Below, piece by piece: positions 1,710 to 36,015 of a stretch of DNA of 64,000 nucleotides (position 1 is the first letter of the stretch; each line of letters begins with the position of its first letter). Both the position numbers and the translations under genes were made by a program. Source of the stretch: Gemmatimonadaceae bacterium. GTDB taxonomy: Bacteria; Gemmatimonadota; Gemmatimonadetes; Gemmatimonadales; Gemmatimonadaceae. Location: assembly GCA_011525845.1 (NCBI GenBank), contig WYBP01000020.1, positions 62,001 to 126,000 on the forward strand, given 5' to 3'. The notes under the pieces are model-generated. The model was not told the origin of the DNA, made no database searches, and worked only from the letters and a program-made list of their open reading frames with translations.

Positions 1710-4262
1710 GTGCGTCCCTTCCGCATCGTCCTCCTCGGCCTCGCGGCCCTCGCGCTCGTCCCGCTCCACGGACTCGGAGCCCAAGCGCGTCCCACAGCGG
1801 CGCAGGCAGAGGCACTCCTGCGAGCGCGCCCGGACCTTGCCTCGCAGCTCCAGTCCCGGATCGCGGGATCCGGGCTGACGCCCGAGCAGATCAGGCAACG
1901 CCTGCGGGCTGAGGGATACCCGGAGTCGCTGCTCGACAGCTACCTCTCGGGGACCGGGACCGTCGGATCGACCCCGAGTGGACAGGTGTTCGAGGCCGTC
2001 CGGGCACTCGGACTCGTGGATGAGGCGGACCTCGACGAGCTCGTGCGTCTCGCCGGGGCGCGCGAGGGTGCGGAGGCGCGTCCCGTCCTCGCCACGCCGG
2101 ACAGTGTCATCGCCGCCGATTCGGGATTCACGGTGTTCGGGTTGGCGATGTTCCGTGAGGTGACCTCGCGGTTCCTGCCGAACCTCGACGGCCCGGTGGA
2201 CGCCGGATACCGGCTCGGACCCGGCGACCAGCTGGTGCTCATCCTCACTGGGGACGTGGAGTTGGCGCACACCCTCGAGGTCACGCGCGAGGGGTTCGTC
2301 GTGATCCCGCAGGTGGGGCAGATCGGCGTCGCGAACCTGACGCTCGGCGAGCTCGAGTCCGTGCTGTACACTCGCCTCGGGAGGGCGTACAGCGGCGTGC
2401 GGCGCGGCGGTGGGGCCACCACGCGGTTCAGCGTGTCCGTCTCGCGCCTGCGGTCGAACCAGGTGTTCGTCACCGGCGACGTGATGTCTCCCGGCTCCTA
2501 CCGCGTGACGAGCGCCGGCACCGCGCTCACCGCGCTCTACGCCGCCGGAGGCCCGACGGAGAACGGTTCGATGCGTCGCGTGGAGGTCCGGCGCGCCGGC
2601 GCGCTGGTCTCGACCCTGGACGTGTACGACTACCTGCTGCGAGGGGACGGATCGGCGGACGTGCGGCTGCAGCATGGCGACGTCGTGTTCGTGCCGGTGC
2701 ACGGGCCGCGGGCCCGCGTGGTGGGCGCGGTGACACGACCCGCGACTTACGAGTTGCGGGGCACCGAGACGCTCGCCGATGTCGGACGGATGGCCGGTGG
2801 CCTGCGTGCGACGGCGACCGGGCGCCGCGTCTACGTCGAACGCGTGGTGCCGATCGCCGACCGCAGCGCCGGCGGCGCGCGCGCCGTGGTCGACGTGCCC
2901 CTCGCCGCGAATGGGGACCTGCCGGCGCTCCCGATCGTCGACGGGGACGTGGTGCGCGTGCCGAGCATCTCGGATCGCGTGCGCGACCGGATCGTCGTGC
3001 GCGGGCATGTCTGGTCGGCAGGTGCGCAGGGCTTCGTCCCGGGCCTCACTCTCGCGGACGCGCTCCGGCGCGCCGGCGGGCTCAAGTCGGACGCGATCCT
3101 GAGTACCGTGCATGTCTCGCGCCTCCGCCCGGACAGCACGCGCGTGCAGCTCCGGGCGACGCTCCTGGACACCCTGGGCACCACGGCGCAGCCCTTCGCG
3201 CTCGAGGACGACGACGAGATCACGGTGTACAGCCGCACGGAGTTCCGTCCTCCACAGTACGTCGTGATCTCCGGTGCCGTCCGCAGCGGCGGCCGGTTCC
3301 CCTGGCGCGCCGGCCTCACGCTCCGCGACCTGGTCCTGATGGCCGGAGGCCTGCAGGAGCGCGCGTACCTGCGCGAGGCCGAGGTGGCGCGGCTCCCGGA
3401 GGGCGACGAGTCCCGCGCGACCGCGATCGCGGTGCGCGTGGCACTCGACAGCTCGTACCGGTTCCACATGCCGTCCGTGCCGGCCGCGCGTGAGCCGGAG
3501 ATCGCGCTCCAACCGTACGACAACGTGCTGATCTTCCAGGATCCCAGCTGGCGGGAACCACGGACCGTGCGGCTCACGGGCGAGGTCCGATTCCCGGGTA
3601 CCTTCACGCTCGAGGGGCGCGCGGACCGGATCTCCGACCTCGTGCGTCGCGCCGGCGGATTGACGCCCGAGGCGGACCTCGACGGGGCGTACTTCGCCCG
3701 CACGGTGGACTCGGCGGCCGCTCGCCGGGTACGCTCCACGCAGCAGCGCCTGCAGCGCGCCGCCACGGGTGCCGACACCTCCGCGCTGGGGGCTCAGGCC
3801 GACTCGACGCTCGACGGGATGCTGAATCGCATCCGCGTCGGAGTCGACCTGCGGGATGCGTTGCGCACCCGCGACCGCGCGGACGACCTGATCCTCGAGC
3901 ACGGCGACTCGATCCACGTGCCGAAGCTGCGGCAGACGGTGGAGGTCCGTGGCGCCGTGAACGCGCCCACCGCGCTCTCGCACGCCAGGGGGAAGAAGCT
4001 GGGGCACTACCTCGATGCCGCCGGTGGCACGACCGAGCGCGCCCGGACGCGTCGCGCCTACGTCATCCAGCCGAACGGCAAGATCGAGAGCCGGCGGCGC
4101 GCGCTGGGATTCATCACGCTCGACCCCACGCCGCGCCCCGGCGCGGTCGTCGTCGTCCCCGAGCGCGGGCAGGAAGTGCCCGGCCCCAGCCTGCTGACGA
4201 GCCTCACCGTCGTGACCCAGCTGCTGGCCTCGCTCGCGACGATCGTCGTGCTGACACGGTAG
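1710..4262 (+). CDS. Wza/GumB-like polysaccharide export protein with about six SLBB repeats
   Basis: I chose GTG 1710 (850 aa) because it begins directly with a signal peptide (VRPFRIVLLGLAALALVPLH then a likely cleavage after GLGAQA) and follows the promoter at 1654-1682; the frame is open from 1638. After an N-terminal helical region comes a poly_export domain (YRLGPGDQLVLILTG), then about six SLBB/beta-grasp units recognisable by repeated V-x-G-x-V...G and AGG motifs, and a hydrophobic C-terminal segment. Wza-family proteins form the outer-membrane/periplasmic channel for capsule or exopolysaccharide. The repeat number is high compared with Wza (two SLBB). The next gene starts 1 bp after its stop, so they are probably co-transcribed. 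Confidence 0.88.
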   Translation: MRPFRIVLLGLAALALVPLHGLGAQARPTAAQAEALLRARPDLASQLQSRIAGSGLTPEQIRQRLRAEGYPESLLDSYLSGTGTVGSTPSGQVFEAVRALGLVDEADLDELVRLAGAREGAEARPVLATPDSVIAADSGFTVFGLAMFREVTSRFLPNLDGPVDAGYRLGPGDQLVLILTGDVELAHTLEVTREGFVVIPQVGQIGVANLTLGELESVLYTRLGRAYSGVRRGGGATTRFSVSVSRLRSNQVFVTGDVMSPGSYRVTSAGTALTALYAAGGPTENGSMRRVEVRRAGALVSTLDVYDYLLRGDGSADVRLQHGDVVFVPVHGPRARVVGAVTRPATYELRGTETLADVGRMAGGLRATATGRRVYVERVVPIADRSAGGARAVVDVPLAANGDLPALPIVDGDVVRVPSISDRVRDRIVVRGHVWSAGAQGFVPGLTLADALRRAGGLKSDAILSTVHVSRLRPDSTRVQLRATLLDTLGTTAQPFALEDDDEITVYSRTEFRPPQYVVISGAVRSGGRFPWRAGLTLRDLVLMAGGLQERAYLREAEVARLPEGDESRATAIAVRVALDSSYRFHMPSVPAAREPEIALQPYDNVLIFQDPSWREPRTVRLTGEVRFPGTFTLEGRADRISDLVRRAGGLTPEADLDGAYFARTVDSAAARRVRSTQQRLQRAATGADTSALGAQADSTLDGMLNRIRVGVDLRDALRTRDRADDLILEHGDSIHVPKLRQTVEVRGAVNAPTALSHARGKKLGHYLDAAGGTTERARTRRAYVIQPNGKIESRRRALGFITLDPTPRPGAVVVVPERGQEVPGPSLLTSLTVVTQLLASLATIVVLTR

Positions 4263-4263
4263 G

Positions 4264-5529
4264 GTGGTGCCGACCGCCACACCGCAGGGCCGCGCCCAGA
4301 CGATCTGGGTGATCTCGAAGTACCTCTCGCCGAAGGAGTACGGCTTCGAGACGCGGCTCTTCGCGATGGCGCGCCATTGGCGCGCCGAGGGGCGCGAGCC
4401 CGTGATGATCGGTTCGGACTCGAACCACCTGGCGCAGATGCCGACCCTCGACCGCCCGCAGGTCGAGGAACGGATCGACGGCCTGCGGTGTGTCTGGCTC
4501 CGCACCTTGCGCTACGGGCGGACCGCGTCGATGCGGCGCGTGCTGAGCTGGTTCCACTTCGAGTGGCGGCTCCTCCGCATGCGCCTGGACGGCTTGCCGG
4601 CGCCCGACGTGATCCTGGTCTCCTCGCTCTCCCTGCTGACGGTGCTGAACGGCCTGCGGCTCAAGCGGCGGTTCGGCTGTCCCATGGTGTTCGAGGTGCG
4701 CGACATCTGGCCGCTCACGATGGTCGAGGAGGGCGGGTTCAGCGCCTGGCACCCGCTCACCCTCCTCCTCGGCTGGATCGAGCGCCTCGGCTACCGGCGC
4801 GCCGAACTCGTCGTCGGCACGATGCCCAACCTTGGCCCGCACGCATCGCGCATGGCCGGCCGCGAGGTCCGCTGTGCCTGCATCCCGTTCGGCTTCGACC
4901 CCGCCGTCGTGGCGCGGCAGGAGGCGTCGCTGGGGGAGGCGCGCGTGATCGTCCGATCCCCGGACGAGCTGGTCGTGGGCTACGCGGGCAGCATGGGGAC
5001 CACCAACGCGCTGCACACCATCGTCGCGTGCGCCGTCCGCCTCAAGGACGACCCGCGCTTCCACTTCGTGCTGCTCGGGGACGGAGACCTGCGCGCCCGG
5101 TTCATGGCGGAGACGGCCGACTGCCCGCGCGTCGAGTGGGTCGGGCGCGTGCCGCGCGAGCAGGTCCTCGGCATCCTGCGCCAGTGCGACCTGCTCTACT
5201 TCGCGGTGCACGACTCGAAGGTCTGGGAGAGCGGGATGTCCCTGAACAAGCTCACGGACTACCTCCTCTCGCGGCGGCCCGTGCTCGCGTCCTACTCCGG
5301 CTTCCCCTCGATCCTCAACGAGGCGGGCTGCGGCGAGTACCTCCCGTCGAATGACGAGGAGGCGCTGCTGGCCGCGCTGCACCGCTACGCGGCGATGCCG
5401 CGGACGGAACGCGAGGCGATGGGAGAGCGAGGCCGACGCTGGCTGTTCGACCACCGCCCATGGCCCGTCCTCGCGCGCCAGTACCTCGCGCTGCTGGACG
5501 GCCTCAGTGGCTCCGGACGCGCCGGATGA
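4264..5529 (+). CDS. WbuB-like GT4 glycosyltransferase
   Basis: This 421-aa GT-B protein begins at GTG 4264, with a second GTG at 4267. The N-terminus (IWVISKYLSPKEYGFETR) and the glycine-rich linker (VVGYAGSMGTTNAL) resemble WbuB, the N-acetyl-fucosamine/amino-sugar transferase of O-antigen loci. The donor-binding end has LNKLTDYLLSRRPVLASYSG. It probably extends a lipid-linked oligosaccharide in the cytoplasm; the donor sugar is inferred only from family resemblance. Its last 26 bp overlap the end of the convergent phosphoglycosyltransferase gene (stop at 5504). Confidence 0.87.
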   Translation: MVPTATPQGRAQTIWVISKYLSPKEYGFETRLFAMARHWRAEGREPVMIGSDSNHLAQMPTLDRPQVEERIDGLRCVWLRTLRYGRTASMRRVLSWFHFEWRLLRMRLDGLPAPDVILVSSLSLLTVLNGLRLKRRFGCPMVFEVRDIWPLTMVEEGGFSAWHPLTLLLGWIERLGYRRAELVVGTMPNLGPHASRMAGREVRCACIPFGFDPAVVARQEASLGEARVIVRSPDELVVGYAGSMGTTNALHTIVACAVRLKDDPRFHFVLLGDGDLRARFMAETADCPRVEWVGRVPREQVLGILRQCDLLYFAVHDSKVWESGMSLNKLTDYLLSRRPVLASYSGFPSILNEAGCGEYLPSNDEEALLAALHRYAAMPRTEREAMGERGRRWLFDHRPWPVLARQYLALLDGLSGSGRAG

Positions 5530-7105
5530 CGATGTCGCGGAAGGTATACCAGAAGTAGGCGATGTCCGTCGCGATCGGTGACCGCAGGTACCGACGCAGG
5601 TAGGTCGCCTCCGTCTCCACGATCTCCGCGAAACCCGCCGTCTTCTCGTCGAAGATCGGGGGCACCAGCCCCGGCTTCACCACGACATAGCGGTCGTAGA
5701 CCTCCTTCGGGTAGAGCCCGAGGAAGTGGGGACTCGTGGCACGCATCCCCACGAGCTTGATGTCGCCGCGCAGCCAGTTGTAGATGCCGGGCAGCTCATC
5801 GAGCCAGCTGCGGCGGATGAGCGGTCCGTACTCGGTGAGGCGGAAGTCGTTCTTGAACTTCCCGGTGGTCGAGAGACCGTGGCTCTCGAAGATCCGCTTC
5901 TGCAGGAACTCGGAGAACGGGAACATGCTCCGCACCTTGAAGAGCCGGATCACCTCGCCGTCGAGCCCCACCTTCTCGAGCGCGACGATCATGTAGTACG
6001 AGGGCCGACGGTTCGCGACCGGCGGCGTCGTGCGCCGGGCGAGGATCAGGCACTCCGCGGGTTCCGGGTGCTCGCGCACCACCTCGAAGCCGAAGTACGC
6101 CAGCCGCCCCCACACCTCGGAGCGCGAGAGCGCGCGCTGCCGCCCGCGCTGCGGCCGATAGAACAGCCGGTCGAGCCAGCGGAAGGGGCGGGAGAAGTAG
6201 AGGACGTCGAGCCACGGGATCTTCGGGATCGCGCGGTACCGCACGAAGTGCAGCAGGTAGGCGGGCCGGAAGAGCCACCGCGGCACCCGTGCGCGGAGCG
6301 CCTCGGTCGCGATCTCGAGCGGCACGTAGCGCACCGCGAGGTACCCGCCCATGGCGACGCTCGACGCGACATCCTGGAGGTAGAGGTTGAGGCGCCGCAC
6401 GGCATTGAGCGAACGCTCCCCGACGAGGAGGCCGAGCGCTTCGCGCCCCGCGGCGGGGCCGAGGGACTCCCGGTCGTCGATCACGAGCGCGGCCCCGGTG
6501 CGCGCTTCCGCGCCCTCGGGTGCGGGGATCGCATCGCGCAGGAACTCGAGCACCACCGGGCCGACCGCGCCATCGATGCTCGCCAGGACGCCGTCCCGGT
6601 CGACCTCCCGCAATGCGGCCGCCTCCGGCACGGTCGCTCCGGTGGTCCCTCCCGCCGCGGCGCGACCCGCCGGCGGGGTCGCCGCCCGCTCGACCCAGGG
6701 GAGCTCGAGCAGGAGGTCGAGGAGCGCCGCAGCCGCCAGGCCCATGCCGATCGTGGCGTCGGCCGCGACGCCCGCCGGCAGCACGAGGGCCGAGGCCGCG
6801 AGGGCGAGAGCCATGATGACCGCCGCCTTCCCGTGCGAGGCGAGCAGGTAGGTCAGGTACCGGTAGGGATACTTGTGCCGGTACTTGTCGGTGAGCCAGA
6901 CCGCGGGGAGCCACGCACCCAGGAACGCGGTCGCGAGTGCGAGGAGGCCTGGGCGTTCCCCGCCCTGCCATGCGGCGATCGCGAACGGGCCCGCGAGCGC
7001 GGCGAGCGCGCCGAACGCGCCCCGCAGCGCCGGGGACCCCACCGCCGGCACGAGCCGGCGCGGGACCACGATCTCGTCGACCACGGCGGCGGTCGCGGTC
7101 GTCAT
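5504..7105 (-). CDS. Large phosphoglycosyltransferase (bacterial sugar transferase domain)
   Basis: This 533-aa protein has four hydrophobic segments within roughly the first 140 residues, a poorly conserved middle domain, and a C-terminal bacterial sugar transferase domain. The catalytic region reads FKVRSM...DFRLTEYGPLIRRSWLDELPGIYNWLRGD, matching the KFRSM / LDELPQ pattern of enzymes that move a sugar-1-phosphate onto undecaprenyl phosphate. The usual GPRP motif is replaced by GMRATSPHF, which is atypical. Its ATG overlaps the stop of the amidotransferase gene (ATGA at 7102-7105), so translation is probably coupled. A second initiating transferase of the short PglC type lies at 34161. Confidence 0.85.
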   Translation of the reverse strand: MTTATAAVVDEIVVPRRLVPAVGSPALRGAFGALAALAGPFAIAAWQGGERPGLLALATAFLGAWLPAVWLTDKYRHKYPYRYLTYLLASHGKAAVIMALALAASALVLPAGVAADATIGMGLAAAALLDLLLELPWVERAATPPAGRAAAGGTTGATVPEAAALREVDRDGVLASIDGAVGPVVLEFLRDAIPAPEGAEARTGAALVIDDRESLGPAAGREALGLLVGERSLNAVRRLNLYLQDVASSVAMGGYLAVRYVPLEIATEALRARVPRWLFRPAYLLHFVRYRAIPKIPWLDVLYFSRPFRWLDRLFYRPQRGRQRALSRSEVWGRLAYFGFEVVREHPEPAECLILARRTTPPVANRRPSYYMIVALEKVGLDGEVIRLFKVRSMFPFSEFLQKRIFESHGLSTTGKFKNDFRLTEYGPLIRRSWLDELPGIYNWLRGDIKLVGMRATSPHFLGLYPKEVYDRYVVVKPGLVPPIFDEKTAGFAEIVETEATYLRRYLRSPIATDIAYFWYTFRDIVIRRVRSH

Positions 7106-9174
7106 GCCGCGCGGCCCGACGACGGGATCCGCGGGATCGCGTTCACGCGACGGATGGTGTCGGCGTAGTCCAGGCCGACGATCTCCAGGTACCACTTGAT
7201 GTTCTCGTAGCGCGGCGCGTTCTCGCGCTCGATGCGCGCGAGCGCCTCGGCGCGGGTGAGCAGCCCCTCGCGGATCTGGTTGCTGCGGAAGGTGTCGTTC
7301 TCGCTGAAGCCGGCCACCGTGAGGTAGACGTAGTTGTAGAAGCTCGCCGTGCCATCCCCGATGCGCCACGTCGCGTCGGTATCGATGGCCTTCTCCCAGT
7401 CGTACTCCCGCAGGATCAACGACTCGATCTCCTGCTCGTTCCACGCGTAGTAGTCGAAGAACGAGTAGTAGTCCCGCTGCGGGAAGAGGTAGCGGGAGAT
7501 GATCGAGCCGATCGAGTCCAGGTTCGACGCGTTCAGGTACGCGGGGTTGGCCAGGACATTGGAGGCGACGAACCCCCAGAAGCGCAGGTGGCCGGCGAGG
7601 GACATCGAGTAGATGCGCCGCTTGTCGAACTTGGGCGCGACACCGGCGAAGCCCGTCTTGAAGTCCGTGTTCTCGAGCCGGTTGATCCCCCACACGTTGA
7701 GCTTGATCCCCGTCGACTGCTTCAGCCGGTTCGTGTGGTAGAAGAAGTACTTGTCGCCGGACATGAGGAGCGGCACCATCCCGAGGCGTGGCCGCTTGAG
7801 CCAGGCCGAGATGTTCTTGCGGATGTTGTCCCGCTTCCACTTGATGTCGGCGGCGACGATCACGTTCTCGACGCCGAGTTTCCCGCAGACCCGTGCGATG
7901 TTGCGTCGCGCGAGGTCGGTCACCATCCCCCAGTCGTAGGTGATGGTGATGGGGTTCATCCCCAACTCGTTCTTGATCATGTGCAGCGCGAAGGTGCTGT
8001 CGCGGCCCCCGCTGAACGGCACGATGCAATCCTGCGACCCGTCGGTGCTCCGGTACGGCGCGACCAGCCGCTTCAGCTCCTCGATGGGCCGGCGCTGGTT
8101 CTTGGGGACGTAGTTGCGGCAGTAGTTGCACCGACCGTCCCCGTCGAACGCGATGAACGGGAAGGTGTCGGGGAGCACGCAGACGCTGCAGCGACGGAGG
8201 CGGGCGAGCCGCTCCCGGTCGTACTGCAGCAGGGCGCGCTCCCCGGCCGCCCGCGGGTCGGCGACGATGCTCCGGAAGTCCACCAGCAGGGAGCGGTGCC
8301 CGGCGGGCGCCTCGATCGACGTCACATGGATGGGCCAGGGCGCGTGCGTGCCCGCTGCCTCCGCGCGCCCCTCGCGCGCCTCCCCGTCGGCCGCGGCGGG
8401 GATGCGACGCATCGAGAGGTCGGCGAGCTCCACCACGCGCCCCGTCCGGGGCTCGACGTGCTCGATCGTGAGCGCCGCCAGCCCGGGATCCCGCGCCGAC
8501 CGCTGCAGCTTGGCCAGCATGCGGCGCTCCGACGCGAAGACCAGTATCGTCGCGCCGTCCGTGATGAGGTAGAGCGAGCCGGTGTTGGTGCCCAGGACGA
8601 GCTCGTCCCGGTCCGCCGGCATGAGCGCGACGGAGAAGGAACCCTCCACCCGGTCGAAGAGGCACCGGAGCGCGCGACCCGAATCACCGCTCGTGCGCCG
8701 CGCGTGCGCGAAGCGCGCGAGCAGCGCCTCGGTGTCGATGTCGAATGCCGGGTCGTCCCCCGGGATCTCCGCCCAGAGCGCGTCCTCGTTGACGACGATG
8801 CCGTTGTGGACGCCGATGACCTCCGAGCGGACCACCGGCTGGTTGTTGTGGTCGGCCAGCTGCGTGCCGTTCGTGACCAGGCGGGAGTGACCGATGACCG
8901 CGATCGTCGAGCCGGCGCGAGCGTCGCCGACGGAGGCGTTGGTGATGGCGGGCCGGACGACCTCGCGGTACTGCGCCGTGCGCACGAGCGCCGTGACGGC
9001 GAGCGGTGCCCGCAGCACGCGGAACGCCCCGGCGGCGGCGTCGCGGACCGCGAAGCCGGAGGAATCCCGCCCGCGCGACTCCGAGATCCGCGCGATGCGC
9101 CGCACCAACCGCTCGATCCGGAGGTGGTCCGCGCGCGCACCGCCTCTCGCAATGATCCCGAAGATTCCGCACAT
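7102..9174 (-). CDS. N-acetyl sugar amidotransferase fused to a class II glutaminase domain
   Basis: The start at 9174 gives MCGIFG, so Cys2 becomes the N-terminal nucleophile of a class II (Ntn) glutamine amidotransferase; RLVTNG (about 98-103) and HNGIVVN (about 123-129) are its glutamine-binding motifs. After a linker comes a four-cysteine cluster (C329, C332, C349, C352) and a PP-loop ATPase signature SGGRDST (388-394), as in the WbpG/PseA family that turns sugar acetamido groups into amidino groups. WbpG usually takes ammonia from separate HisH/HisF-like partners; here the ammonia source is in the same 690-aa chain. The TATATT box 8 bp before ATG suggests a leaderless message. Substrate unknown; a nonulosonic or uronic N-acetyl sugar is the likeliest. 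Confidence 0.88.
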   Translation of the reverse strand: MCGIFGIIARGGARADHLRIERLVRRIARISESRGRDSSGFAVRDAAAGAFRVLRAPLAVTALVRTAQYREVVRPAITNASVGDARAGSTIAVIGHSRLVTNGTQLADHNNQPVVRSEVIGVHNGIVVNEDALWAEIPGDDPAFDIDTEALLARFAHARRTSGDSGRALRCLFDRVEGSFSVALMPADRDELVLGTNTGSLYLITDGATILVFASERRMLAKLQRSARDPGLAALTIEHVEPRTGRVVELADLSMRRIPAAADGEAREGRAEAAGTHAPWPIHVTSIEAPAGHRSLLVDFRSIVADPRAAGERALLQYDRERLARLRRCSVCVLPDTFPFIAFDGDGRCNYCRNYVPKNQRRPIEELKRLVAPYRSTDGSQDCIVPFSGGRDSTFALHMIKNELGMNPITITYDWGMVTDLARRNIARVCGKLGVENVIVAADIKWKRDNIRKNISAWLKRPRLGMVPLLMSGDKYFFYHTNRLKQSTGIKLNVWGINRLENTDFKTGFAGVAPKFDKRRIYSMSLAGHLRFWGFVASNVLANPAYLNASNLDSIGSIISRYLFPQRDYYSFFDYYAWNEQEIESLILREYDWEKAIDTDATWRIGDGTASFYNYVYLTVAGFSENDTFRSNQIREGLLTRAEALARIERENAPRYENIKWYLEIVGLDYADTIRRVNAIPRIPSSGRAA

Positions 9175-9344: not shown

Positions 9345-10496
9345 GTGCCGGATCGGCTTCTGGATGACAGGCGGTCCCCGGATCCAGGACCGCAGACTCG
9401 CCCCATCATCGTGCTGATGGCCGTGACGAGTCCCTGGTCCCGCCTCGTGGTGGAGTTCCTGAGCGACGCGGGGGTCCCGATTCACGTGATGGACGTGAAC
9501 AACACGCTGCGCGAGCCCGCGGTGCGCGCGAGCACCGCGGGCACGATCCGGCGCCTCGAGGAGCGCGTGGAAGGGGTCCACGCGGCGACGCTCCCCCGGC
9601 TCCTGCCGGTGCGGTTGCTCGTCGGTGCGTGGGCGCTGCGACGGCTGGTGCGGCGGACGGACGCGCAGCTGGTGCTGACGTTGTACGGCGGGATGCAGGC
9701 CGCGGTCGCCTGGCTCAGCGGCGCCGCGCCCTACGCCGTCTACGTCGTGGGGAGTGACGTCCTGCTCGCGAACCGCAGCCGAGACGTCCTGTCGCGACGC
9801 TCGCTGCGCGGCGCATCCCTCGTGCTGGCCAACGGCGGACACCTGGCCGAGCGCACGCGACGGCTCGCACCCGGGGTTCGCGTCGACCTCCTCTACTTCG
9901 GCATCGACCGCACGCGGTTCTTCCCACCGGCGCGGCGGCAGGATGCGCCGACGTTCGTCTGCTCGCGCGCCTTCGCGGAGGTCTACGACAACGCCACGAT
10001 CGTTCGCGCCGTGGCGGGCCTCCCGGCGGTCGCCGACGCCTTTCGCCTCTCCTTCCTCTCCACGGGACCGCAGCTGGCGGAGACCGTCCGCCTGGCCGAC
10101 GCCACGCTCGAGGCCGGGGTGCGGAGCCGCGTCCATTTCGCCGGGGGTGTCTCCGACGCCGCCTTGGTCGAGGCCCTGCAGGGCGCGAGGTTCTATCTTT
10201 CGGCGTCGCTCTCCGACGGCGCGTCCGTCTCGCTGCTGGAGGCCATGGCCTGCGGGGTGCTCCCGATCGTCAGCGACATCCCGGCGAACCGGGAGTGGAT
10301 CACGCATGGCGAGAACGGCCTGCTCTTTCCCCCTGGAGATCACGTGACCCTGACACACCACATGCAGGCCGCGATGGCCGGACTCCCCTGGCATGGTGCA
10401 GCGGTGGAGCAGAACCTCCGCCGGGTGGCGGAACATGGAGACATCACGGCGAACCTCAAGCGACTGCCGGCGCTGCTGCAGTCGGTGTCCCGCTGA
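9345..10496 (+). CDS. GT4-family glycosyltransferase
   Basis: A GT-B glycosyltransferase of 383 aa from GTG 9345; the frame is open from GTG 9291 (401 aa), but the promoter elements make the shorter form likelier. Recognisable parts are a nucleotide-sugar binding region (CSRAFAEVYDN...) and the C-terminal donor motif SDGASVSLLEAMACGVLPIVSD (E-x7-E region). It is the first gene of a plus-strand group with a nucleotidyltransferase, an epimerase and an FkbM methyltransferase; its TGA overlaps the next ATG by one base (TGATG). Donor and acceptor cannot be assigned. Confidence 0.86.
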   Translation: MPDRLLDDRRSPDPGPQTRPIIVLMAVTSPWSRLVVEFLSDAGVPIHVMDVNNTLREPAVRASTAGTIRRLEERVEGVHAATLPRLLPVRLLVGAWALRRLVRRTDAQLVLTLYGGMQAAVAWLSGAAPYAVYVVGSDVLLANRSRDVLSRRSLRGASLVLANGGHLAERTRRLAPGVRVDLLYFGIDRTRFFPPARRQDAPTFVCSRAFAEVYDNATIVRAVAGLPAVADAFRLSFLSTGPQLAETVRLADATLEAGVRSRVHFAGGVSDAALVEALQGARFYLSASLSDGASVSLLEAMACGVLPIVSDIPANREWITHGENGLLFPPGDHVTLTHHMQAAMAGLPWHGAAVEQNLRRVAEHGDITANLKRLPALLQSVSR

Positions 10497-11221
10497 TGCT
10501 CGCCGTCATCCTCGCCGGAGGCAAAGGCGCGCGCCTCAGGCCCTTCACCATGACGATCCCCAAGCCATTGCTGCCGCTGGGGGACGTGCCGATCCTCGAC
10601 GTGATCCTGCGCCAGCTGGCCGCGAGCGGATTCACCCGGGTGATCCTCACGCTGGGCCACATGGCACCGCTCTTCCTCTCCACCTACGGGGAGGGCAAGG
10701 CGTACGGTTTGCGCATCGAGTACCTGCGGGAGGACGAACCGCTGGGCACGGCGGGCCCGCTGCGGCAGATCGTGGATCCGCCCGCCGACTTCCTCGTCAT
10801 GAACGGGGACCTGCTGACCGACCTCTCCTACGTCGACCTCATCGCCGCACACCGCGCGCGGGGAGCCGCCGGCACCATCGGGGTGGCGGCACGGGAGGAG
10901 AAGGTCGACTACGGCGTGATCGAGATGGACGCCAACGGCTCCTTCACCGACTACCGGGAGAAGCCGGTCATCCCCTACTACGTGAGCATGGGCATCAATG
11001 TGCTGAACGCGAGCGCGCTGGCGCACATCCCTCCCACCGGGAAGTTCGACATGCCCGCGCTCATGCTCTCACTGCATCAGGCCGGCGAACTGGTCCACTG
11101 CTTCCGCTCCGACTGCTACTGGCAGGACATGGGGCGGTTCGACGACTACACGCGGGCGAGCGAGGATTTCGTGCGCGATCCCGATCGCTTCATCTCCCCG
11201 GACGCGCCGCCCCGCGGATGA
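10496..11221 (+). CDS. Sugar-1-phosphate nucleotidyltransferase
   Basis: The 241-aa protein starts MLAVILAGGKGARLRPFT...PKPLLPLG, the classic NTP_transferase signature for binding the nucleoside triphosphate and sugar phosphate. MNGDLL supplies the metal-binding aspartate and DYGVIEMD...EKP is the sugar-binding stretch. Members make GDP-mannose-type, dTDP-glucose-type or related activated sugars; this short form without a C-terminal hexapeptide domain is most like mannose-1-phosphate or heptose-1-phosphate guanylyltransferases. The start ATG overlaps the previous stop and its own TGA overlaps the next ATG (ATGA), so the three genes are translationally coupled. The nucleotide specificity is not readable from sequence. 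Confidence 0.85.
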   Translation: MLAVILAGGKGARLRPFTMTIPKPLLPLGDVPILDVILRQLAASGFTRVILTLGHMAPLFLSTYGEGKAYGLRIEYLREDEPLGTAGPLRQIVDPPADFLVMNGDLLTDLSYVDLIAAHRARGAAGTIGVAAREEKVDYGVIEMDANGSFTDYREKPVIPYYVSMGINVLNASALAHIPPTGKFDMPALMLSLHQAGELVHCFRSDCYWQDMGRFDDYTRASEDFVRDPDRFISPDAPPRG

Positions 11222-12135
11222 CCACCACCCTGATCACCGGCGCTGGTGGGTTCATCGCCCGGCACCTCGCGCACGCGATCAGGAACGAGCGGGAAGGGCG
11301 CGTCGTCGGCGTCGACGTCCGGGCAGCGACCGGGGGGCCCTTCGACGCCTGGATCGTCGCGGACCTCACCGACCCCGCCGCGGCACGGACGGCCGTCGAC
11401 GAAGTCCGCCCCGACCGCATCTTCCATCTGGCCGGACTGACGCATGGGAGTGAGGAGGTGCTGCAGCGCGCGAACGTCGACACGACCGCGAACATCCTGG
11501 AGGCCAGCCGCGCAGCCGGCGAGACCACCCGCGTCGTGGTCATGGGCTCCGCTGCGGAGTACGGTCACGTCGCGGTGGCGGACCAGCCGGTACGGGAGTC
11601 GCACCAGGGAGAGGCCGCCACACCCTACGGGCGAGCGAAGCAGACGGTGTCCCGACTCGCGGCGGCCGCGGCCGCCGCGCACGGCACACGCGTGTGCATC
11701 GCCCGCCCGTTCAACGTCATCGGTCCGGGAGTGCCCGACACATTGGTCGCGGGCGCGATCATCTCCCGACTGCGGGCCGCGATCGCACCCGGCGGGACCG
11801 GGGTCGTGACGATCGGTCGCACGACCGCCATCCGCGACTTCATCGCCGTCGAGGACGTGGTCGCCGGCCTCCTGCGGATCGCCGCGGCCGGCCGCCCCGG
11901 AGAGGCGTACAACCTCTGCTCGGGTGAGGGACACGCGATCTCGGCGCTGCTGAAGATGCTCCTCGACGCGGCGGGGACTCCCGTGCGGGTCGAGGGGAGC
12001 GAGGCGCTGCAGCGCGCGGGGGACGTCGACCAGATGATCGGGAGTCGCGCGAAGGCGCAGCGCGAACTCGACTGGACACCGGAGCGCAGCTTCGCCTCGA
12101 GCGTTCACGCGTCCTGGCAGGCCAGCGCCGGCTGA
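11218..12135 (+). CDS. NAD(P)-dependent sugar epimerase/reductase (extended SDR)
   Basis: A 305-aa extended short-chain dehydrogenase with N-terminal Rossmann motif TGAGGFIA, the active-site serine segment GSAAEYG, the catalytic YGRAK pair, and ARPFNVIGPG. This layout matches GDP-4-keto-6-deoxymannose reductase (Rmd) and related nucleotide-sugar 4-reductases or epimerases. Together with the upstream nucleotidyltransferase it could form a two-step path to an activated deoxy sugar, although no matching GDP-mannose 4,6-dehydratase is seen nearby. It starts in an ATGA overlap with the previous gene. Confidence 0.83.
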   Translation: MTTTLITGAGGFIARHLAHAIRNEREGRVVGVDVRAATGGPFDAWIVADLTDPAAARTAVDEVRPDRIFHLAGLTHGSEEVLQRANVDTTANILEASRAAGETTRVVVMGSAAEYGHVAVADQPVRESHQGEAATPYGRAKQTVSRLAAAAAAAHGTRVCIARPFNVIGPGVPDTLVAGAIISRLRAAIAPGGTGVVTIGRTTAIRDFIAVEDVVAGLLRIAAAGRPGEAYNLCSGEGHAISALLKMLLDAAGTPVRVEGSEALQRAGDVDQMIGSRAKAQRELDWTPERSFASSVHASWQASAG

Positions 12136-21778: not shown

Positions 21779-21791
21779 CGGTAGGGGAAGG

Positions 21792-22556
21792 TCAGGACGG
21801 GAACGCGGCCACGTCGATCTCCGGCAGCGCGTCGGGATGCTCGCGGACGAGTTGCTCGACCCACGCCCAGTCGCGAGGGTCGTTCACATCCACCCCCTCG
21901 AGATCCTGGGTGAGGAAGGGTACGATCACCGATCCGGCGATGGTACCTCCTTCGAGGGCGACGCGCGACCAGGCGATCTCGAGACTCGCGTTCTGGACGT
22001 AGACCTCCGGCAGCGCGGCATACTGCTGGCTGTGCCAGGGCGCGTCGACGGGGGAGAGCGGCAACAGCGGCGTCATGCGCTCGCCACGCACGACCCACAT
22101 CTTCCCCGGGTGCTGCTTGCACTTCTCGACGGCACGCAGGGAGTCCACGCCTTCCATCCGGCGGAAGAGCGCCCACGCGCGCGCGATCGTCTCGGCCCGG
22201 CGGAACGGACTGGTGGGACGCAGGATGCTGAACGCATCGAAGCGGCGGTCAGCCGACTCCAGCCCCCGGAGGGCCTGGACCACCCAGTCGATGTCCGGAG
22301 ATCGCTCTCCGGCGATCGCCGCCGGGCGCAGGAAGGGTACCTCCGCGCCGTAGTGGCGTGCGATGTCCGCATAGCCCGCGTCGTCGGTCGACACCACGAC
22401 CGCGGAGAACACCCCGCTCGCGCGGGCCGCCGCGATGCTGTAGGCCAGCATCGGATGCCCCGCCAGTCGCCGAACGTTCTTGTGGGGCACCCGGCGCGAG
22501 CCGGCGCGGGCCGGGATGAGCGCGACCGCGGTCGGATCGGAAGTGCGCGGCGTCAC
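21792..22556 (-). CDS. neuA: CMP-nonulosonate synthetase (acylneuraminate cytidylyltransferase)
   Basis: The 254-aa protein begins at GTG 22556, directly abutting the stop of the aldehyde dehydrogenase. It contains the family motif VALIPARAGSRRVPHKNVRRLAG, the STDD...A segment, and FSILRPTSPFRRAETI, typical of NeuA/PtmB enzymes that couple CTP to the anomeric hydroxyl of sialic, legionaminic or related acids. The C-terminus (GVDVNDPRDWAWVEQLV) is also typical. With NeuB and the KdsC-like phosphatase it forms the activation end of a nonulosonic acid pathway. Confidence 0.88.
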   Translation of the reverse strand: MTPRTSDPTAVALIPARAGSRRVPHKNVRRLAGHPMLAYSIAAARASGVFSAVVVSTDDAGYADIARHYGAEVPFLRPAAIAGERSPDIDWVVQALRGLESADRRFDAFSILRPTSPFRRAETIARAWALFRRMEGVDSLRAVEKCKQHPGKMWVVRGERMTPLLPLSPVDAPWHSQQYAALPEVYVQNASLEIAWSRVALEGGTIAGSVIVPFLTQDLEGVDVNDPRDWAWVEQLVREHPDALPEIDVAAFPS

Positions 22557-26446: not shown

Positions 26447-26544
26447 GCAGTTCCTCCGGGAAGGTTCACCAATGTCGCTGCCCCTTGTGGCGACGCGACG
26501 GGGTACAATCTAGTCGGGGCGCGGGCACCCATGCGCCGGGTGGT
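26447..26544. other. 98-bp gap, the main break in the alaS-to-wzz series
   Basis: This is the only sizeable non-coding gap between alaS (30927) and wzz (13178). It contains TAGATT on the minus strand (26507-26512), which could act as a -10 for neuB, but no -35 match lies 16-18 bp upstream. No terminator-like hairpin was found. Confidence 0.35.
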
Positions 26545-27890: not shown

Positions 27891-28209
27891 GCGACGACCC
27901 TGGCGAGCGCGCGCATCGCCTGCCGGGCCTGCGCGCCGAGGAGCGCCGGCGTGTCGGCGGCGGCCTCGAACGCCCAGGTCACGCACGCGTCGGCGGCGAG
28001 CAGGTCGAGCGCCTGGGCGCGTCCCGCATCCGCCGCACCCCCTGCTCCGGCACCCACGACGCCCGCGAGCAGCGCCGTTCCCGCCGCCAGCATCGCGTCC
28101 GTCGTCGGTGCGCCTGCGAGCTCCGGGCGCGCCGCGAGCATGTGCTCGATGCGCAGCGCGAGCCGCGGATGGGGCGCAGGCTCCCGCGACGCGATCCACG
28201 CACGGTGGG

Positions 28210-28213: not shown

Positions 28214-30927
<2,714 letters not shown>

Positions 30928-31081: not shown

Positions 31082-31133
31082 TTTGTGCCGGTGCCCTCCC
31101 CAGGGGGGAACGGGCTCAGGGACCACACACTTG

Positions 31134-33026
31134 ATGCTGCGCAACAGACACTTCTTCCTGCTCGACGTCGTGGGACTGCTGCTCGTCCCCTTCATCGCCC
31201 TCGCCCTCCGGTTCGAGGGCCTCTCGTGGCCCGCCGGCTACCTCGTCTCCGCCGCCGTCTTCGCGGCCGTGACCCTCCCCATCCGCCTCGGGTTCGCGTG
31301 GCGCGCCGGTCTCTACAGCTGCATGTGGCAGCACGCGAGCATCGTGGAGCTGGAGCGGATCCTGACGGCCGCGATGCTCGCGGCGGCGGCGAACCTCGTG
31401 GTCGGGCTCGCGCTGGGCGACTGGCTCGCACTGACGCCGCAACGGATGCCCTACTCCGTGCTCGCGCTCGACGCCCTCTTCGCCGTGACGGTGCTCGCCA
31501 CGCCGCGGCTCGCCGTCCGCCTCCTCCACCGGCGCCGCAAGCGGATCGGTGAGCGGGTGCGCACGATCGTCGTCGGCGCGGGCTCGGCGGGGCAGATGAT
31601 CGCCAACGAGTCCGTCGCGAGCGACCGCGCGCACTTCGAGGTGGTGGCGTTCGTCGACGACGACGCGGGCAAGCTGGGGAAGCTCCTGAACGGCATCCGC
31701 GTCGAGGGCCGGATCGACGACCTCCCGCGGCTCATCCGCAGTCTCGGCGCCACCGAGGTCATCATCGCGATGCCGTCCGCCCGGGGCACGGCCGTCCGGC
31801 GGGTGGTGGAACTCGCGGTCGAGGCAGGCGCCCGCACTCGCACCGTCCCGAGTCTCGGCGACCTGGTCTCCGGGCGCGTGGAGGTGACCGCGCTCCGTCC
31901 CGTCGAGATCCAGGACCTGCTGCGGCGGGCGCCGATCACCACGGATATCGCGGCCGTTCGCACCCTGGCCGAGGGCAAGACGGTGCTCGTCACCGGGGCC
32001 GGCGGATCGATCGGCTCGGAGCTCTGCCGGCAGATCGCCGCGCTCAGGCCGGAGTTGCTCGTCCTGCTCGACCACTCGGAGAACCAGGTCTTCGAGATCG
32101 AGGGTGAGCTGCGGCGACGCTTCCCCACGGTGGGGCTCGCGCCCGTGGTGGCCGACATCCGCGACGAGCGCCGGATGCGACGGACGTTCGAGCGCTTCCG
32201 CCCCTTCGCCGTCTTCCATGCGGCCGCGCACAAGCACGTGCCGCTCATGGAGGAGAACGTGAGCGAGGCCGTGACCAACAACGTGCTCGGCACGCGGAAC
32301 GTGGTGGAAGCCGCCGTCGAGTTCGACGTCACGCACCTGGTGCTCATCTCGACCGACAAGGCCGTGCGCCCGACCTCCATCATGGGGGCGACGAAGCGGC
32401 TGGCGGAGCTGATCGTGCGTCTGGCGGCGGCACGGGAGAAGCGCCACTTCGTGGCGGTCCGCTTCGGGAACGTGCTGGGCTCGCGCGGGTCGGTCGTGCC
32501 CACGTTCATGGCGCAGATCGAGCGCGGCGGCCCGGTGACGGTCACCCACCCGGACATGCGCCGGTTCTTCATGACCATCCCCGAAGCGGTGCAGCTCGTG
32601 CTGCAGGCCGGCGCGCTCGGCAATGGCGGGGAGCTCTTCGTGCTCGACATGGGGGACGCGGTCAAGATCGCGGACCTCGCCCGCGACCTCATCCGGCTCT
32701 CGGGACTCGAGGAGGGCGTGGACATCGAGCTTCGCTACACCGGGATCCGTCCCGGGGAGAAGCTCTACGAGGAAGTGCTCTTCGGGGACGAGGACGTCCG
32801 GGACACCGCACACGCGAAGGTCTTGCGGGTGCTCGCCGACGAGCCCGACGAGGCACTCCGCCTGCGCATCGACGAGCTCGTGGGCCTCGCGACGCACGCC
32901 CGGGTCGACGAACGGGTGCTCCGCGAGGCGCTCCAGGCCCTCGTGCCAGACTTCCACGTGCCGGAACGCCGACCCGACGTGCTTCCGCTCCGCCCCCGCA
33001 CGACCGGCGAGCACCGCACCGCCTGA
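31134..33026 (+). CDS. Membrane-bound UDP-GlcNAc 4,6-dehydratase (PglF/WbpM type)
   Basis: The 630-aa protein has four N-terminal hydrophobic helices, a first Rossmann domain (IVVGAGSAGQMIANE, near 145), and a second, catalytic SDR domain (VLVTGAGGSIGSELCRQ, near 285). HAAAHKHVPLME and STDKAVRPTSIMGATKR (Met in place of Tyr) are typical of PglF/WbpM C4 dehydratases, and FGNVLGSRGSVVPTF completes the family pattern. It would oxidise UDP-GlcNAc to the 4-keto-6-deoxy intermediate for bacillosamine. I chose ATG 31134 because it begins just before the first helix. It is convergent with the aminotransferase gene, with 1 bp between stop codons. Confidence 0.9.
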   Translation: MLRNRHFFLLDVVGLLLVPFIALALRFEGLSWPAGYLVSAAVFAAVTLPIRLGFAWRAGLYSCMWQHASIVELERILTAAMLAAAANLVVGLALGDWLALTPQRMPYSVLALDALFAVTVLATPRLAVRLLHRRRKRIGERVRTIVVGAGSAGQMIANESVASDRAHFEVVAFVDDDAGKLGKLLNGIRVEGRIDDLPRLIRSLGATEVIIAMPSARGTAVRRVVELAVEAGARTRTVPSLGDLVSGRVEVTALRPVEIQDLLRRAPITTDIAAVRTLAEGKTVLVTGAGGSIGSELCRQIAALRPELLVLLDHSENQVFEIEGELRRRFPTVGLAPVVADIRDERRMRRTFERFRPFAVFHAAAHKHVPLMEENVSEAVTNNVLGTRNVVEAAVEFDVTHLVLISTDKAVRPTSIMGATKRLAELIVRLAAAREKRHFVAVRFGNVLGSRGSVVPTFMAQIERGGPVTVTHPDMRRFFMTIPEAVQLVLQAGALGNGGELFVLDMGDAVKIADLARDLIRLSGLEEGVDIELRYTGIRPGEKLYEEVLFGDEDVRDTAHAKVLRVLADEPDEALRLRIDELVGLATHARVDERVLREALQALVPDFHVPERRPDVLPLRPRTTGEHRTA

Positions 33027-33027
33027 C

Positions 33028-34164
33028 TCAGCCGCGCGCCATCCCGGCGATGACGTCGATCACGCGCTGCTGGTCCGCTTCCGACATCGCGGAACCGCTG
33101 GGCAGGCAGATGCCCCGGGCATAGAGCGCCTCGCTCACGCCGGAGAGCACCGCCGTCGCACCGGCATAGACCGGCTGCATGTGCATCGGCTTCCAGAGGG
33201 GGCGCGCCTCGATGTTCAGCGCCTCGAGCGCGAGGCGCACCTCCGTCGCGGTCGCGCCGAACCGGTCGGGATCCACCGTCGCCGTCGTGAGCCAGCGCGA
33301 GTGGCTCCCGGGGCCCGTGTCAGGCTGGAAGGTCACGCCCGGGAGCCCTGCGAGTGCCGTCGCGTAGCGCTCGTAGACTCGCGCGCGGGCCCGCAAACGG
33401 TCGTCCAGCACGCCCAGCTGCCCCCGGCCGACCGCCGCGAGCAGGTTGCTCAGCCGGTAGTTGAAGCCGATCTCCTGGTGCTCGTAGTGCGCCGCCGGCT
33501 CGCGCGCCTGGGTCGCCAGCTTCAGCACGCGGTCGAGGAGGGCACCGTCCTCGGCCACCACCATGCCGCCCCCGGAGGTGGTGATCACCTTGTTGCCGTT
33601 GAACGAGTAGATCCCCATCGCGCCGAGGGTCCCGGCGGCGCGGCCACCATACGTCGCGCCCAGCGCCTCGGCGGCGTCCTCGATCACCGGGATCCCGTAC
33701 CGCTCGCCGAGTCCGAGGATGGGCGCCATCTCCGCCACCTGGCCGTAGAGATGCACGGGCACGATCGCGCGCGGCATCCGCCCCCGCTTCGCCGCCTTGG
33801 CGAGATAGTCCTCGAGCAGCTGAGGATCGAGGTTCCAGGTGCGCGATTCGCTGTCCACGAAGACCGGGTTCGCCCCGACGTAGCGGATGGGGTTGACGCT
33901 CCCGGCGAAGGTCAGGGTGCTCACGAGCACATCGTCGCCCGCCGCCACCCCGGAGACCAGCAGCGCGAGGTGAAGCGCGGCGGTCCCGGACGAGAGCGCC
34001 ACGGCCCGTGGCACGCCGACGTACGACGCGAACTCCTCCTGGAACGCATCGACGTGTGGTCCGAGCGGCGCGATCCAGTTCGAGTCGAACGCCTCGAGCA
34101 GGAGTCGACGCTCGTCGGCGCCCATGTGCGGCGGGGAGAGGTAGAGACGGCGGGAGGCGGTCAT
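33028..34164 (-). CDS. DegT/DnrJ/EryC1 sugar aminotransferase (PglE-like)
   Basis: A 378-aa PLP-dependent enzyme. The N-terminus YLSPPHMGADERRLLLEAFD and SNWIAPLG are very similar to PglE/LegC-type UDP-4-amino-sugar aminotransferases; ALSSGTAALHLAL binds the PLP phosphate, EDAAEALGATYGG holds the PLP-ring aspartate, and SFNGNKVITTSGGGM contains the Schiff-base lysine (about residue 190). It would aminate the 4-keto sugar made by the convergent dehydratase. The ATG overlaps the PglC-like stop (ATGA). Confidence 0.91.
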   Translation of the reverse strand: MTASRRLYLSPPHMGADERRLLLEAFDSNWIAPLGPHVDAFQEEFASYVGVPRAVALSSGTAALHLALLVSGVAAGDDVLVSTLTFAGSVNPIRYVGANPVFVDSESRTWNLDPQLLEDYLAKAAKRGRMPRAIVPVHLYGQVAEMAPILGLGERYGIPVIEDAAEALGATYGGRAAGTLGAMGIYSFNGNKVITTSGGGMVVAEDGALLDRVLKLATQAREPAAHYEHQEIGFNYRLSNLLAAVGRGQLGVLDDRLRARARVYERYATALAGLPGVTFQPDTGPGSHSRWLTTATVDPDRFGATATEVRLALEALNIEARPLWKPMHMQPVYAGATAVLSGVSEALYARGICLPSGSAMSEADQQRVIDVIAGMARG

Positions 34165-34799
34165 CTCGATCCGGTGAAGCGGTGCATGGTGTCGGTCCCG
34201 GCCTGCGCGATCCCGTCCCGTCGCAGCACGCGGACGACGGTGAGCGCGAGGATCCGCAGGTCGAGGAGGAAGGAACGATGATCGACGTACCAGACGTCGA
34301 GGGCGAGCCTCGCGGGCCAATCGAGCGCGTTCCGCCCGTTGACCTGCGCCCAGCCGGTGATGCCAGGGAGCACCTCGTGCCGCCGGGCCTGGGTCGCGTC
34401 GTAGAGCGGAAGGTACTCGGGCAGCAAGGGGCGCGGTCCGACCAGGCTCATCTCGCCGCGCAGGACGTTCACGAGGGCCGGGAGCTCGTCGAGGCTCGTG
34501 CTCCGCAGGAATCGGCCGAACCGCGTGAGGCGTGCCCGGTCGGACGCCGCATCCTCCACCTCCCCGGGCGCGAGCGACCGCATCGAACGGAACTTGTGCA
34601 TCCGGAAGAGGACGCCACCCCGACCCGGGCGCCGCTGCGAGAAGAGCACGGGCGCGCCGAGCAGCGCGCGGATGGCCACACCGATGACCAGCAGGACCGG
34701 GAAGAGGGCGACGAGGAGGACGGCCGCGGCCGTCGCGTCGAACGCCCGCTTCGCCACGTCGTATCCCTTCGTCCCGGTGTGCCGTGCCAGCCCGTTCAG
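34161..34799 (-). CDS. PglC-like phosphoglycosyltransferase
   Basis: A short bacterial sugar transferase of about 212 aa: one N-terminal re-entrant hydrophobic segment (AFDATAAAVLLVALFPVLLV), then HKFRSMRSLAPGE, STSLDELPALVNVLRGEMSLVGPRP and GITGWAQVNGRN. This is the monotopic PglC type that transfers phospho-bacillosamine to undecaprenyl phosphate. No ATG, GTG or TTG fits between the upstream stop and the first helix except an internal GTG (VAKRAFD); a CTG in a CTGA overlap at 34799 is the best-placed start. The frame is open to 34904, but that would overlap the acetyltransferase by 109 bp. Confidence 0.82.
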   Translation of the reverse strand: MNGLARHTGTKGYDVAKRAFDATAAAVLLVALFPVLLVIGVAIRALLGAPVLFSQRRPGRGGVLFRMHKFRSMRSLAPGEVEDAASDRARLTRFGRFLRSTSLDELPALVNVLRGEMSLVGPRPLLPEYLPLYDATQARRHEVLPGITGWAQVNGRNALDWPARLALDVWYVDHRSFLLDLRILALTVVRVLRRDGIAQAGTDTMHRFTGSR

Positions 34800-35461
34800 G
34801 AGTCGCGCTCCCTGGCCGCGAGGAGCCGCGCCGGGACGCCCGCGACCACGGACGCGTCCGCGACCGGTCGGAGCACGCAAGCGCCGGCGCCCACCACGGC
34901 CCACGGGCCGATCCGCAATGGGGCCCCCACCTGGCCCTGGGCGACGGACGCCCCGATCCCCAGCAGCGCGCCCGCACCGACGTGCACGTTGCCCCCGACC
35001 ATCACGCCGGGCGAGAGCGTGGCGTACGCCTCCAGCACGCAGTCGTGCGACACGCTGCTGCCGGTGTTCACGTGCACGTGCGCGCCGATCCGGACGCCAC
35101 AGGAGACCACTGTCCCCGGGAAGAGCACCGAGCCCTCGCCCACCGAGGCGTCGGGGGCGACGAGTGCGCCGGGATGGATCAGCGTGTCGGGCGCCATCCC
35201 GAGCGCGAGCGCCTGCTCCGCGAGGGATCGGCGCAGGTTCGGGCTTCCGAGCCCGCTTATGAATCGCGCACCCGAAAAGCGGCGGGCGGCATCCCCAAGC
35301 GCGAGGACGGGGAGGCCGTCGACCGTGCGGCCCTCGGTGCCGTCATCGACGGCGAAGGCGACCACCTCGCGAGGCCCCCCGTCCGCACACTGGCGCGCGA
35401 TCCAACCGCATTCGCGCGCGTGCCCGCCCCACCCAAGGATCACGAGAGGGGGCGCGCTCAC
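34796..35461 (-). CDS. PglD/NeuD-type sugar acetyltransferase
   Basis: From GTG 35461 (GTGA overlap with the upstream gene) the 221-aa protein starts PPLVILGWGGHARECGWIA, the N-terminal nucleotide-sugar-binding domain of the NeuD/PglD family. A left-handed beta-helix of hexapeptide repeats follows (IHPGALVAPDASVGEGSVL, SVSHDCVLEAYATLSPG, with the catalytic His in SHDC). It would acetylate the 4-amino group of the UDP-sugar from the PglE-like enzyme to give UDP-di-N-acetylbacillosamine. Confidence 0.9.
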   Translation of the reverse strand: MSAPPLVILGWGGHARECGWIARQCADGGPREVVAFAVDDGTEGRTVDGLPVLALGDAARRFSGARFISGLGSPNLRRSLAEQALALGMAPDTLIHPGALVAPDASVGEGSVLFPGTVVSCGVRIGAHVHVNTGSSVSHDCVLEAYATLSPGVMVGGNVHVGAGALLGIGASVAQGQVGAPLRIGPWAVVGAGACVLRPVADASVVAGVPARLLAARERDS

Positions 35462-36015
35462 CGGATCCTCCGCGCGAACATCACACCGCCCCGGTACGGC
35501 AGCCATTCGCCGCTCTTGTTCCACCCCGGTCCGATGTCGTAGCGGAGTCCCGTCTCGGCGTGATAGCCCTTGTAGAGTGACTGCGCCGTCCCACCGCCGG
35601 CAAAGACGTCGATCGACCAACGCTCCCCGAGCTCCCGCTTGTATCCCACGGTCCCGCCGAGGAGGACGCCGAACCCCTCTTGATAGAGGTCGGTGCCACG
35701 GTACTCCCACTTCTGCAGCCGAAAGCCCGTCGCGCCGACGTGAGCACCGAGATACAGCCCGGTCTGACCGGGCCGCAGGTGGTACCGCCACTCGCTCGTG
35801 ACGATCAGGAACTGCATCGGGACGCGGTCGACGGAGCGCCAGAACGACGCCGTGGCATCGACCTGGTAGGTGAGGCGCTCCCCGAGAGTGAACTCCAGAC
35901 CGGCGCCCGGCACGCCGATGAGCGACGTCAGCCCGTTCAGCTTCACGAAGGTCTGCGCGCCGGGCGCGGCGGCGGGCAACAGCAGCAGTGCAAGAAGGAC
36001 GAGCGCGCGGTTCAT
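35458..36015 (-). CDS. DUF3575-like outer-membrane beta-barrel protein
   Basis: The 185-aa protein has a signal peptide (MNRALVLLALLLLPAAAPGA) followed by alternating beta-strands with aromatic ends (LGERLTYQVDATASFWRSVD, EWRYHLRPGQTGLYLGAHVG), resembling the DUF3575 family of small outer-membrane barrels. It ends in a GTGA overlap with the acetyltransferase gene and is therefore probably the first gene of the bacillosamine operon. A structural or anchoring role at the outer membrane is only inferred. Confidence 0.72.
   Translation of the reverse strand: MNRALVLLALLLLPAAAPGAQTFVKLNGLTSLIGVPGAGLEFTLGERLTYQVDATASFWRSVDRVPMQFLIVTSEWRYHLRPGQTGLYLGAHVGATGFRLQKWEYRGTDLYQEGFGVLLGGTVGYKRELGERWSIDVFAGGGTAQSLYKGYHAETGLRYDIGPGWNKSGEWLPYRGGVMFARRIR

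Follow-up and report, generated by a model that had tools for sequence, protein, structure and literature searches.

The 64,000-nucleotide stretch of contig WYBP01000020.1 from a Gemmatimonadaceae bacterium (assembly GCA_011525845.1, positions 62,001 to 126,000 of the forward strand), which is referred to here as the window, carries a polysaccharide cluster containing a gene for a two-domain protein. In this protein a class-II glutaminase of the N-terminal nucleophile (Ntn) type is joined to a PP-loop domain resembling the N-acetyl sugar amidotransferases (NASATs) WbpG, WbuX and PseA. A preliminary description made from the sequence had placed the gene correctly at 7102-9174 but left its strand unsaid; it is read on the minus strand, from 9174 to 7102, and the plus-strand reading of the same span gives no sensible protein. 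The gene, its domains and its neighbours are collected in Table 1.

Table 1. The fusion gene, its domains and other sugar-related genes of the window
Feature	Coordinates	Strand	Basis or remark
Fused glutaminase/NASAT-like amidotransferase gene, 690 residues	7102..9174	-	stop codon included in span
Class-II (Ntn) glutaminase domain, residues 1-260	8395..9174	-	Pfam; structural match to GlmS/PurF; near-invariant residues
Linker joining both catalytic domains, residues 261-324	8203..8394	-	AlphaFold secondary structure and pLDDT; weak alignment conservation
NASAT/WbuX-like domain, residues 325-684	7123..8202	-	TIGR03573, 132 bits; 8WEX, Z 23.3
Bac_transf-type polyprenyl-phosphate sugar transferase	5504..7105	-	LDELP family motif; Pfam
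GT4 glycosyltransferase	4264..5529	+	Pfam; part of a set with the sugar transferase and the fusion
Sugar-1-phosphate nucleotidyltransferase, same polysaccharide cluster	10466..11221	+	NCBIfam
NAD-dependent sugar epimerase/dehydratase, GalE/LegB-like	11218..12135	+	under cut-offs
Membrane UDP-GlcNAc 4,6-dehydratase-like protein, CapD/PseB type	31083..33026	+	
DegT/LegC-like sugar aminotransferase	33028..34281	-	
NeuD/PglB-type sugar N-acetyltransferase	34799..35791	-	over family cut-off

Architecture of the fused protein

The translation begins MCGIFG, which puts a cysteine at position 2, and the glutaminase half further contains the motifs HSRLVTNG (R98, T101) and HNGIVVN (N124, G125) as well as D147. 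The NASAT-like half has the tetracysteine C329/C332/C349/C352 and the PP-loop SGGRDS at residues 388-393. All the motifs named in the preliminary description, which had proposed precisely this joining of an Ntn glutaminase to a NASAT-type PP-loop domain, were found, and Pfam, TIGR03573 and the PDB agree with it. In Pfam, GATase_7 (residues 96-221) and GATase_6 (residues 92-216) both score over their cut-offs, and the GlmS models of NCBIfam cover only residues 1-226, which is their glutaminase region; neither collection detects a SIS domain in the protein. The WbuX model TIGR03573 matches residues 328-663 (E 3e-38, 132 bits). By sequence, the best solved structures in the PDB are GlmS for the N-terminal half and, for the C-terminal half, 8WEX, an N-acetyl sugar amidotransferase from Legionella pneumophila.

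An AlphaFold model of the whole chain, computed from 61 input sequences, is confident for both domains taken together (predicted local distance difference test, pLDDT, 90; predicted TM-score, pTM, 0.91). With VIA-align, its N-terminal domain aligns with the glutaminases of GlmS and PurF over about 230 residues (Z about 26), and its residues 325-684 align with 8WEX over 316 residues (Z 23.3, root-mean-square deviation (rmsd) 4.3). The protein has no visible membrane anchor. The preliminary description had also called the architecture parallel to AsnB but for a sugar. This holds for the order of the domains only, and AsnB-type sugar amidotransferases, namely WbpS and WbqG, are already known (PMC7468200). 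Superposition of the whole chain on AsnB with Foldseek fails (TM-score 0.26-0.36, rmsd above 20), so that the comparison gave no evidence of a domain arrangement in common with AsnB, and whole-chain likeness was rejected. Neither Asn_synthase (Pfam) nor a full-length AsnB or eps_aminotransferase model (NCBIfam) matches the protein, the only hit being a sub-cut-off match to the glutaminase region.

Distribution and ammonia partners of the fusion

A scan of one genome per species (84,980 species) found relatives encoded in 346 stretches; the best 80 of these were taken as fusion loci. These best 80 align from query residue 1, nearly all of them up to about residue 683, with an identity of 40-57 %. 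Among 82 aligned relatives, C2, R98, T101, N124, G125, D147, the four cysteines and SGGRDS are retained in 98-99 % of the rows, and the rows that do not conserve them are, as far as checked, fragments or misalignments; a second alignment of the catalytic residues comprised 60 relatives. Since some of the scan patterns sit in the glutaminase half and could have biased the scan towards fusions, the NASAT half alone was searched in 694 genomes of Bacteroidota and Pseudomonadota. This search returned nine close matches (at least 48 % identity), two of them being centre genomes; eight belong to fusion-sized frames (609-690 residues), and the ninth matches only in part, its frame having 308 residues. 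The 80 independent full-length loci and the NASAT-half search together exclude a chance fusion or an assembly artefact, and the fusion is a real, conserved and so far unnamed variant of a known enzyme type. No paper describing it was found in a search of the open-library literature, which omits most subscription journals.

How widespread the fusion is had been left as a query in the preliminary description, with a domain-architecture search as the means to answer it. The answer is that it is widespread but patchy, with 80 further loci in many phyla and in archaea: carriers include Bacteroidota, Pseudomonadota, Planctomycetota, Bacillota, Chloroflexota, Gemmatimonadota, two archaea and others. 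Most relatives come from phyla other than the window's own, above all Bacteroidota, while within that phylum only 2 of 298 genomes (G000, the window's genome, and G153) have the fusion, which excludes a local, phylum-specific invention. Gemmatimonadota, Planctomycetota, Bacteroidota, Pseudomonadota, Bacillota, Chloroflexota and archaea are intermixed in a patchy tree of the fusion relatives, and because of this intermixing the tree suggests that the gene was spread by horizontal transfer. A phage collection contained no match to the fusion. In plasmid records, relatives bear the names glucosamine 6-phosphate synthetase, hypothetical protein or 7-cyano-7-deazaguanine synthase. Two loci have peculiar arrangements. 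In L029 (9995-12034) a single in-frame stop codon divides the glutaminase half from the NASAT half, which reflects either a sequencing error or a naturally occurring two-gene arrangement. L036 carries two fusion genes, at 3144-4988 and 10001-12037 (603 and 679 residues); the interval that separates the two holds a stand-alone NASAT-like frame with a weak match.

As a control for the ammonia supply, we used 20 loci from the window's class with stand-alone NASATs over the curated cut-off. Both hisH and hisF adjoin the stand-alone NASAT in 16 of these loci, but the two genes are present together in just 6 of the 80 fusion loci, and in five of those six (L031, L049, L088, L100, L101) the pair is adjoined by a separate stand-alone NASAT; the sixth is L086, whose stretch is truncated by the end of the contig. 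In L056, hisH lies at the end of the stretch read and a stand-alone NASAT just beyond. The difference between fusion and stand-alone loci is highly significant (Fisher p about 2e-10 with all six loci counted as contrary, 5e-13 with two). Genome-wide, one HisH over cut-off was found in each of G000, G323, G324 and G326 and none in G325 and G330. Only G327, G328 and G329 have two, the extra copy lying about 0.7-3.2 kb from a stand-alone NASAT. In the window's genome the one HisH, the one HisF and a HisA-like match are all located within 3 kb on another contig and represent the histidine operon; a genome-wide search found no hidden second pair. Since stand-alone NASAT loci carry hisH and hisF and fusion loci are mostly without them, the comparison supports the view, already put forward in the preliminary description, that the fusion works independently of these partners, its predicted glutaminase replacing the HisH/HisF pair. 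As a separate observation, four stand-alone NASATs over the cut-off have neither hisH nor hisF in the stretch read: L142 (7003-8166), L146 (6094-7260), L149 (5811-8075) and L154 (6819-8135).

The fusion is best viewed as a single-chain, glutamine- and ATP-dependent sugar amidotransferase, a reading to which we assign a probability of roughly 0.85. Four points weigh against the fuller reading, in which the enzyme replaces HisH/HisF and forms an acetamidino group. First, the NASAT half, with its 132 bits, does not reach the curated TIGR03573 cut-off of 203.2 bits, so that the activated group could differ, for example by being the carboxylate of a uronic acid. Second, the stand-alone controls were drawn from a single bacterial class, and several of them belong to the same genome. 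Third, in L086 (10001-13102) a fusion with intact catalytic residues has hisH and hisF directly after it, at the very end of the contig, and a third gene may follow. Fourth, the activity of every member of the fusion family is predicted. To judge from its sequence, the fusion is a divergent sister of the NASATs in its synthetase half, scoring under the family cut-off. The arrangement in L086, that in L029, where both halves share one frame with a stop codon between them, and the predicted nature of the glutaminase function would also suit an N-terminal domain that is an inactive or regulatory relic, with the PP-loop domain fed by free ammonia or by an outside glutaminase. We consider this very improbable, as Cys2, Arg98, Asn124, Gly125 and Asp147 are kept in essentially all relatives, bacterial and archaeal, and the catalytic residues are kept even in L086, L100 and L101, all of which are beside hisH/hisF.

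Gene neighbourhood, candidate substrates and related domains

The start codon of the Bac_transf-type sugar transferase gene overlaps the stop codon of the fusion in an ATGA sequence. Homologues of this transferase occur in 37 of the 80 fusion loci as against 1 of the 20 stand-alone NASAT loci. The set of GT4, sugar transferase and fusion genes is kept in L022, L028, L055 and L056, and is found near the fusion also in L100 and L101; in the other deep clade, the fusion is accompanied instead by genes for a GT2, a flippase and a large membrane protein. Both kinds of company, together with the gene overlap and the unusually wide pocket of the NASAT crystal structure (PMC10607449), raise the idea that the sugar is not amidated as a free nucleotide sugar but while linked to polyprenyl, beside the membrane sugar transferase. 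We hold this to be rather unlikely: the neighbouring genes do not reveal the substrate, the fusion has no visible membrane anchor and the transferase is missing from about half of the loci read.

Among the genes that recur in the 80 fusion loci are those for an aminotransferase (27 loci), a UDP-GlcNAc 2-epimerase-like enzyme (17), a NeuD/PglD-type protein (15) and a hexapeptide acetyltransferase (14). CMP-sugars had been among the candidate substrates of the preliminary description. However, NeuB-like genes are near the fusion in only 2 of 80 loci, compared with 5 of 20 for stand-alone NASATs, a context that does not favour nonulosonates (CMP-sugars) as the usual substrates. The window itself does have NeuB- and PseF-like genes, about 13-17 kb from the fusion. 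They belong to a run at 19790-28391 encoding a transketolase, a PseF-like cytidylyltransferase, an aldehyde dehydrogenase, a PtmA-like short-chain dehydrogenase/reductase (SDR), a NeuB-like synthase, another SDR and a GmhA-like isomerase, all under equivalog cut-offs where tested; this run may make an unusual nonulosonate-like sugar. The product of the membrane dehydratase-like gene at 31083..33026 possibly makes a 2,4-diamino sugar.

Uronic acids deserve separate consideration, as the main rival to an acetamidino product is a uronamide. In that scheme an N-acetylated hexuronic acid would be activated at its carboxylate by the PP-loop domain, with ammonia coming from the fused glutaminase, as in WbpS and WbqG with their AsnB-type domain. 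A glutaminase followed by an ATP-pyrophosphatase is indeed the layout of WbpS/WbqG, for which uronamides have been shown or proposed (PMC7468200). UDP-sugar 6-dehydrogenase genes occur in 10 of 80 fusion loci but in 0 of 20 stand-alone NASAT loci, and L078 and L083 contain WbpA/B/D/E-like sets without a stand-alone NASAT. In opposition to this, the second domain is NASAT-like and not AsnB-like, AsnB-like genes exist as separate genes in 9 of the 80 fusion loci, and a 6-dehydrogenase is absent from the stretch read in 70 of the 80 loci, and the window likewise shows none in its first 37 kb. On balance a uronamide is unlikely, although it has to be kept in mind.

Attempts to fix the sugar from the neighbouring genes failed. 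L056, L100 and L101 hold both a fusion and a stand-alone NASAT; in all three the fusion has PglD/DegT-type genes next to it, and the stand-alone NASATs of L056 and L100 have genes of the 2,3-diamino-uronate type next to them. This pattern is contradicted by L078, L082, L083 and L095, where uronate-type genes accompany the fusion and there is no stand-alone NASAT. The neighbouring genes are most compatible with a 2,4-diacetamido-trideoxyhexose or a 2,3-diacetamido uronic acid.

NASAT-like domains also turned up in a different setting. Seven relatives, all of the same class or phylum, have a WbuX/NASAT-like PP-loop domain with SGGKDS and CxxC pairs as an insertion within the adenylation domain of a non-ribosomal peptide synthetase (NRPS), where it separates the AMP-binding core from the C-terminal part. 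The loci are L136 (7581-10637, minus strand), L137 (7379-11593, minus strand), L138 (5712-9875, plus strand), L134, L135, L139 and L140, with L135, L139 and L140 assigned to this type from frame length and match only. The order in L136 is AMP-binding (residues 69-424), WbuX (518-838), AMP-binding_C (851-902) and carrier (932-995). None of these proteins has a glutaminase domain attached, and an amidotransferase-like domain that interrupts an adenylation domain looks unusual.

Proposed reaction and comparison with known systems

In class-II glutaminases the N-terminal cysteine hydrolyses glutamine, and PP-loop enzymes adenylate a carbonyl. Applied to the fusion, loss of Met1 would free the Cys2 nucleophile, the N-terminal Ntn domain would hydrolyse glutamine, and the ammonia would reach the C-terminal PP-loop domain by a path within the protein. 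There a carbonyl oxygen of the sugar, most likely that of the N-acetyl group, would be adenylated with release of pyrophosphate, and displacement of AMP by ammonia would give an acetamidino sugar, the fused glutaminase standing in for the HisH/HisF pair. In the NASATs, too, the role of the PP-loop is a proposal, and the structure paper on the crystallised enzyme holds no activity assay (PMC10607449). That the fusion forms an acetamidino group in surface-polysaccharide biosynthesis is a reasonably likely reading of the domains and their context. Much more tentatively, it can be imagined that an unnamed enzyme family, horizontally spread over bacteria and archaea, makes acetamidino sugars alone, and that in one clade it is tied to a lipid-linked sugar transferase of its own, which would make the amidino sugar the first sugar of the polysaccharide.

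If the proposal is true, the glutaminase, the ammonia transfer and the amide activation, which otherwise take three proteins, are united in one chain. The enzymes of acetamidino sugars, which belong to the surface sugars, have received little biochemical characterisation. An enzyme consisting of one chain and requiring no more than glutamine, ATP and a sugar would be a far simpler test system than the three-protein WbpG/HisH/HisF system and, if it works as proposed, a useful tool for producing such sugars. Naming the family would also mend the records labelled glucosamine-6-phosphate synthetase or 7-cyano-7-deazaguanine synthase.

With the NASATs WbpG, WbuX and PseA (TIGR03573; 8WEX) the fusion shares the SGGxDS PP-loop, a zinc-type tetracysteine, the fold and the setting in surface-polysaccharide clusters. 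The residues common to stand-alone NASATs and the fusion are the four cysteines, SGGxDS, N425, S631, G637 and R641. However, its identity to 8WEX is about 23 %, its score is below the curated one, the surroundings of its PP-loop are unlike those of NASATs (TYDWGMVTD and an extra segment W458-L464), and it has its own glutaminase domain and no hisH/hisF partner genes. GlmS and PurF, the best structural match, have in common with it the class-II Ntn glutaminase fold and the catalytic residues. In contrast to these, the fusion lacks a SIS sugar-isomerase or phosphoribosyltransferase domain, its acceptor half being a PP-loop domain. Stand-alone WbpG/WbuX with HisH/HisF, like the AsnB-type WbpS/WbqG, are already known, and WbpS and WbqG are not known to use HisH/HisF. 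The latter two share with the fusion a glutaminase domain placed first, an ATP-pyrophosphatase placed second and a surface sugar as target (PMC7468200). They differ in that their second domain belongs to the asparagine-synthetase family and their product is a carboxamide, whereas the second domain of the fusion is NASAT-like and its predicted product an amidine.

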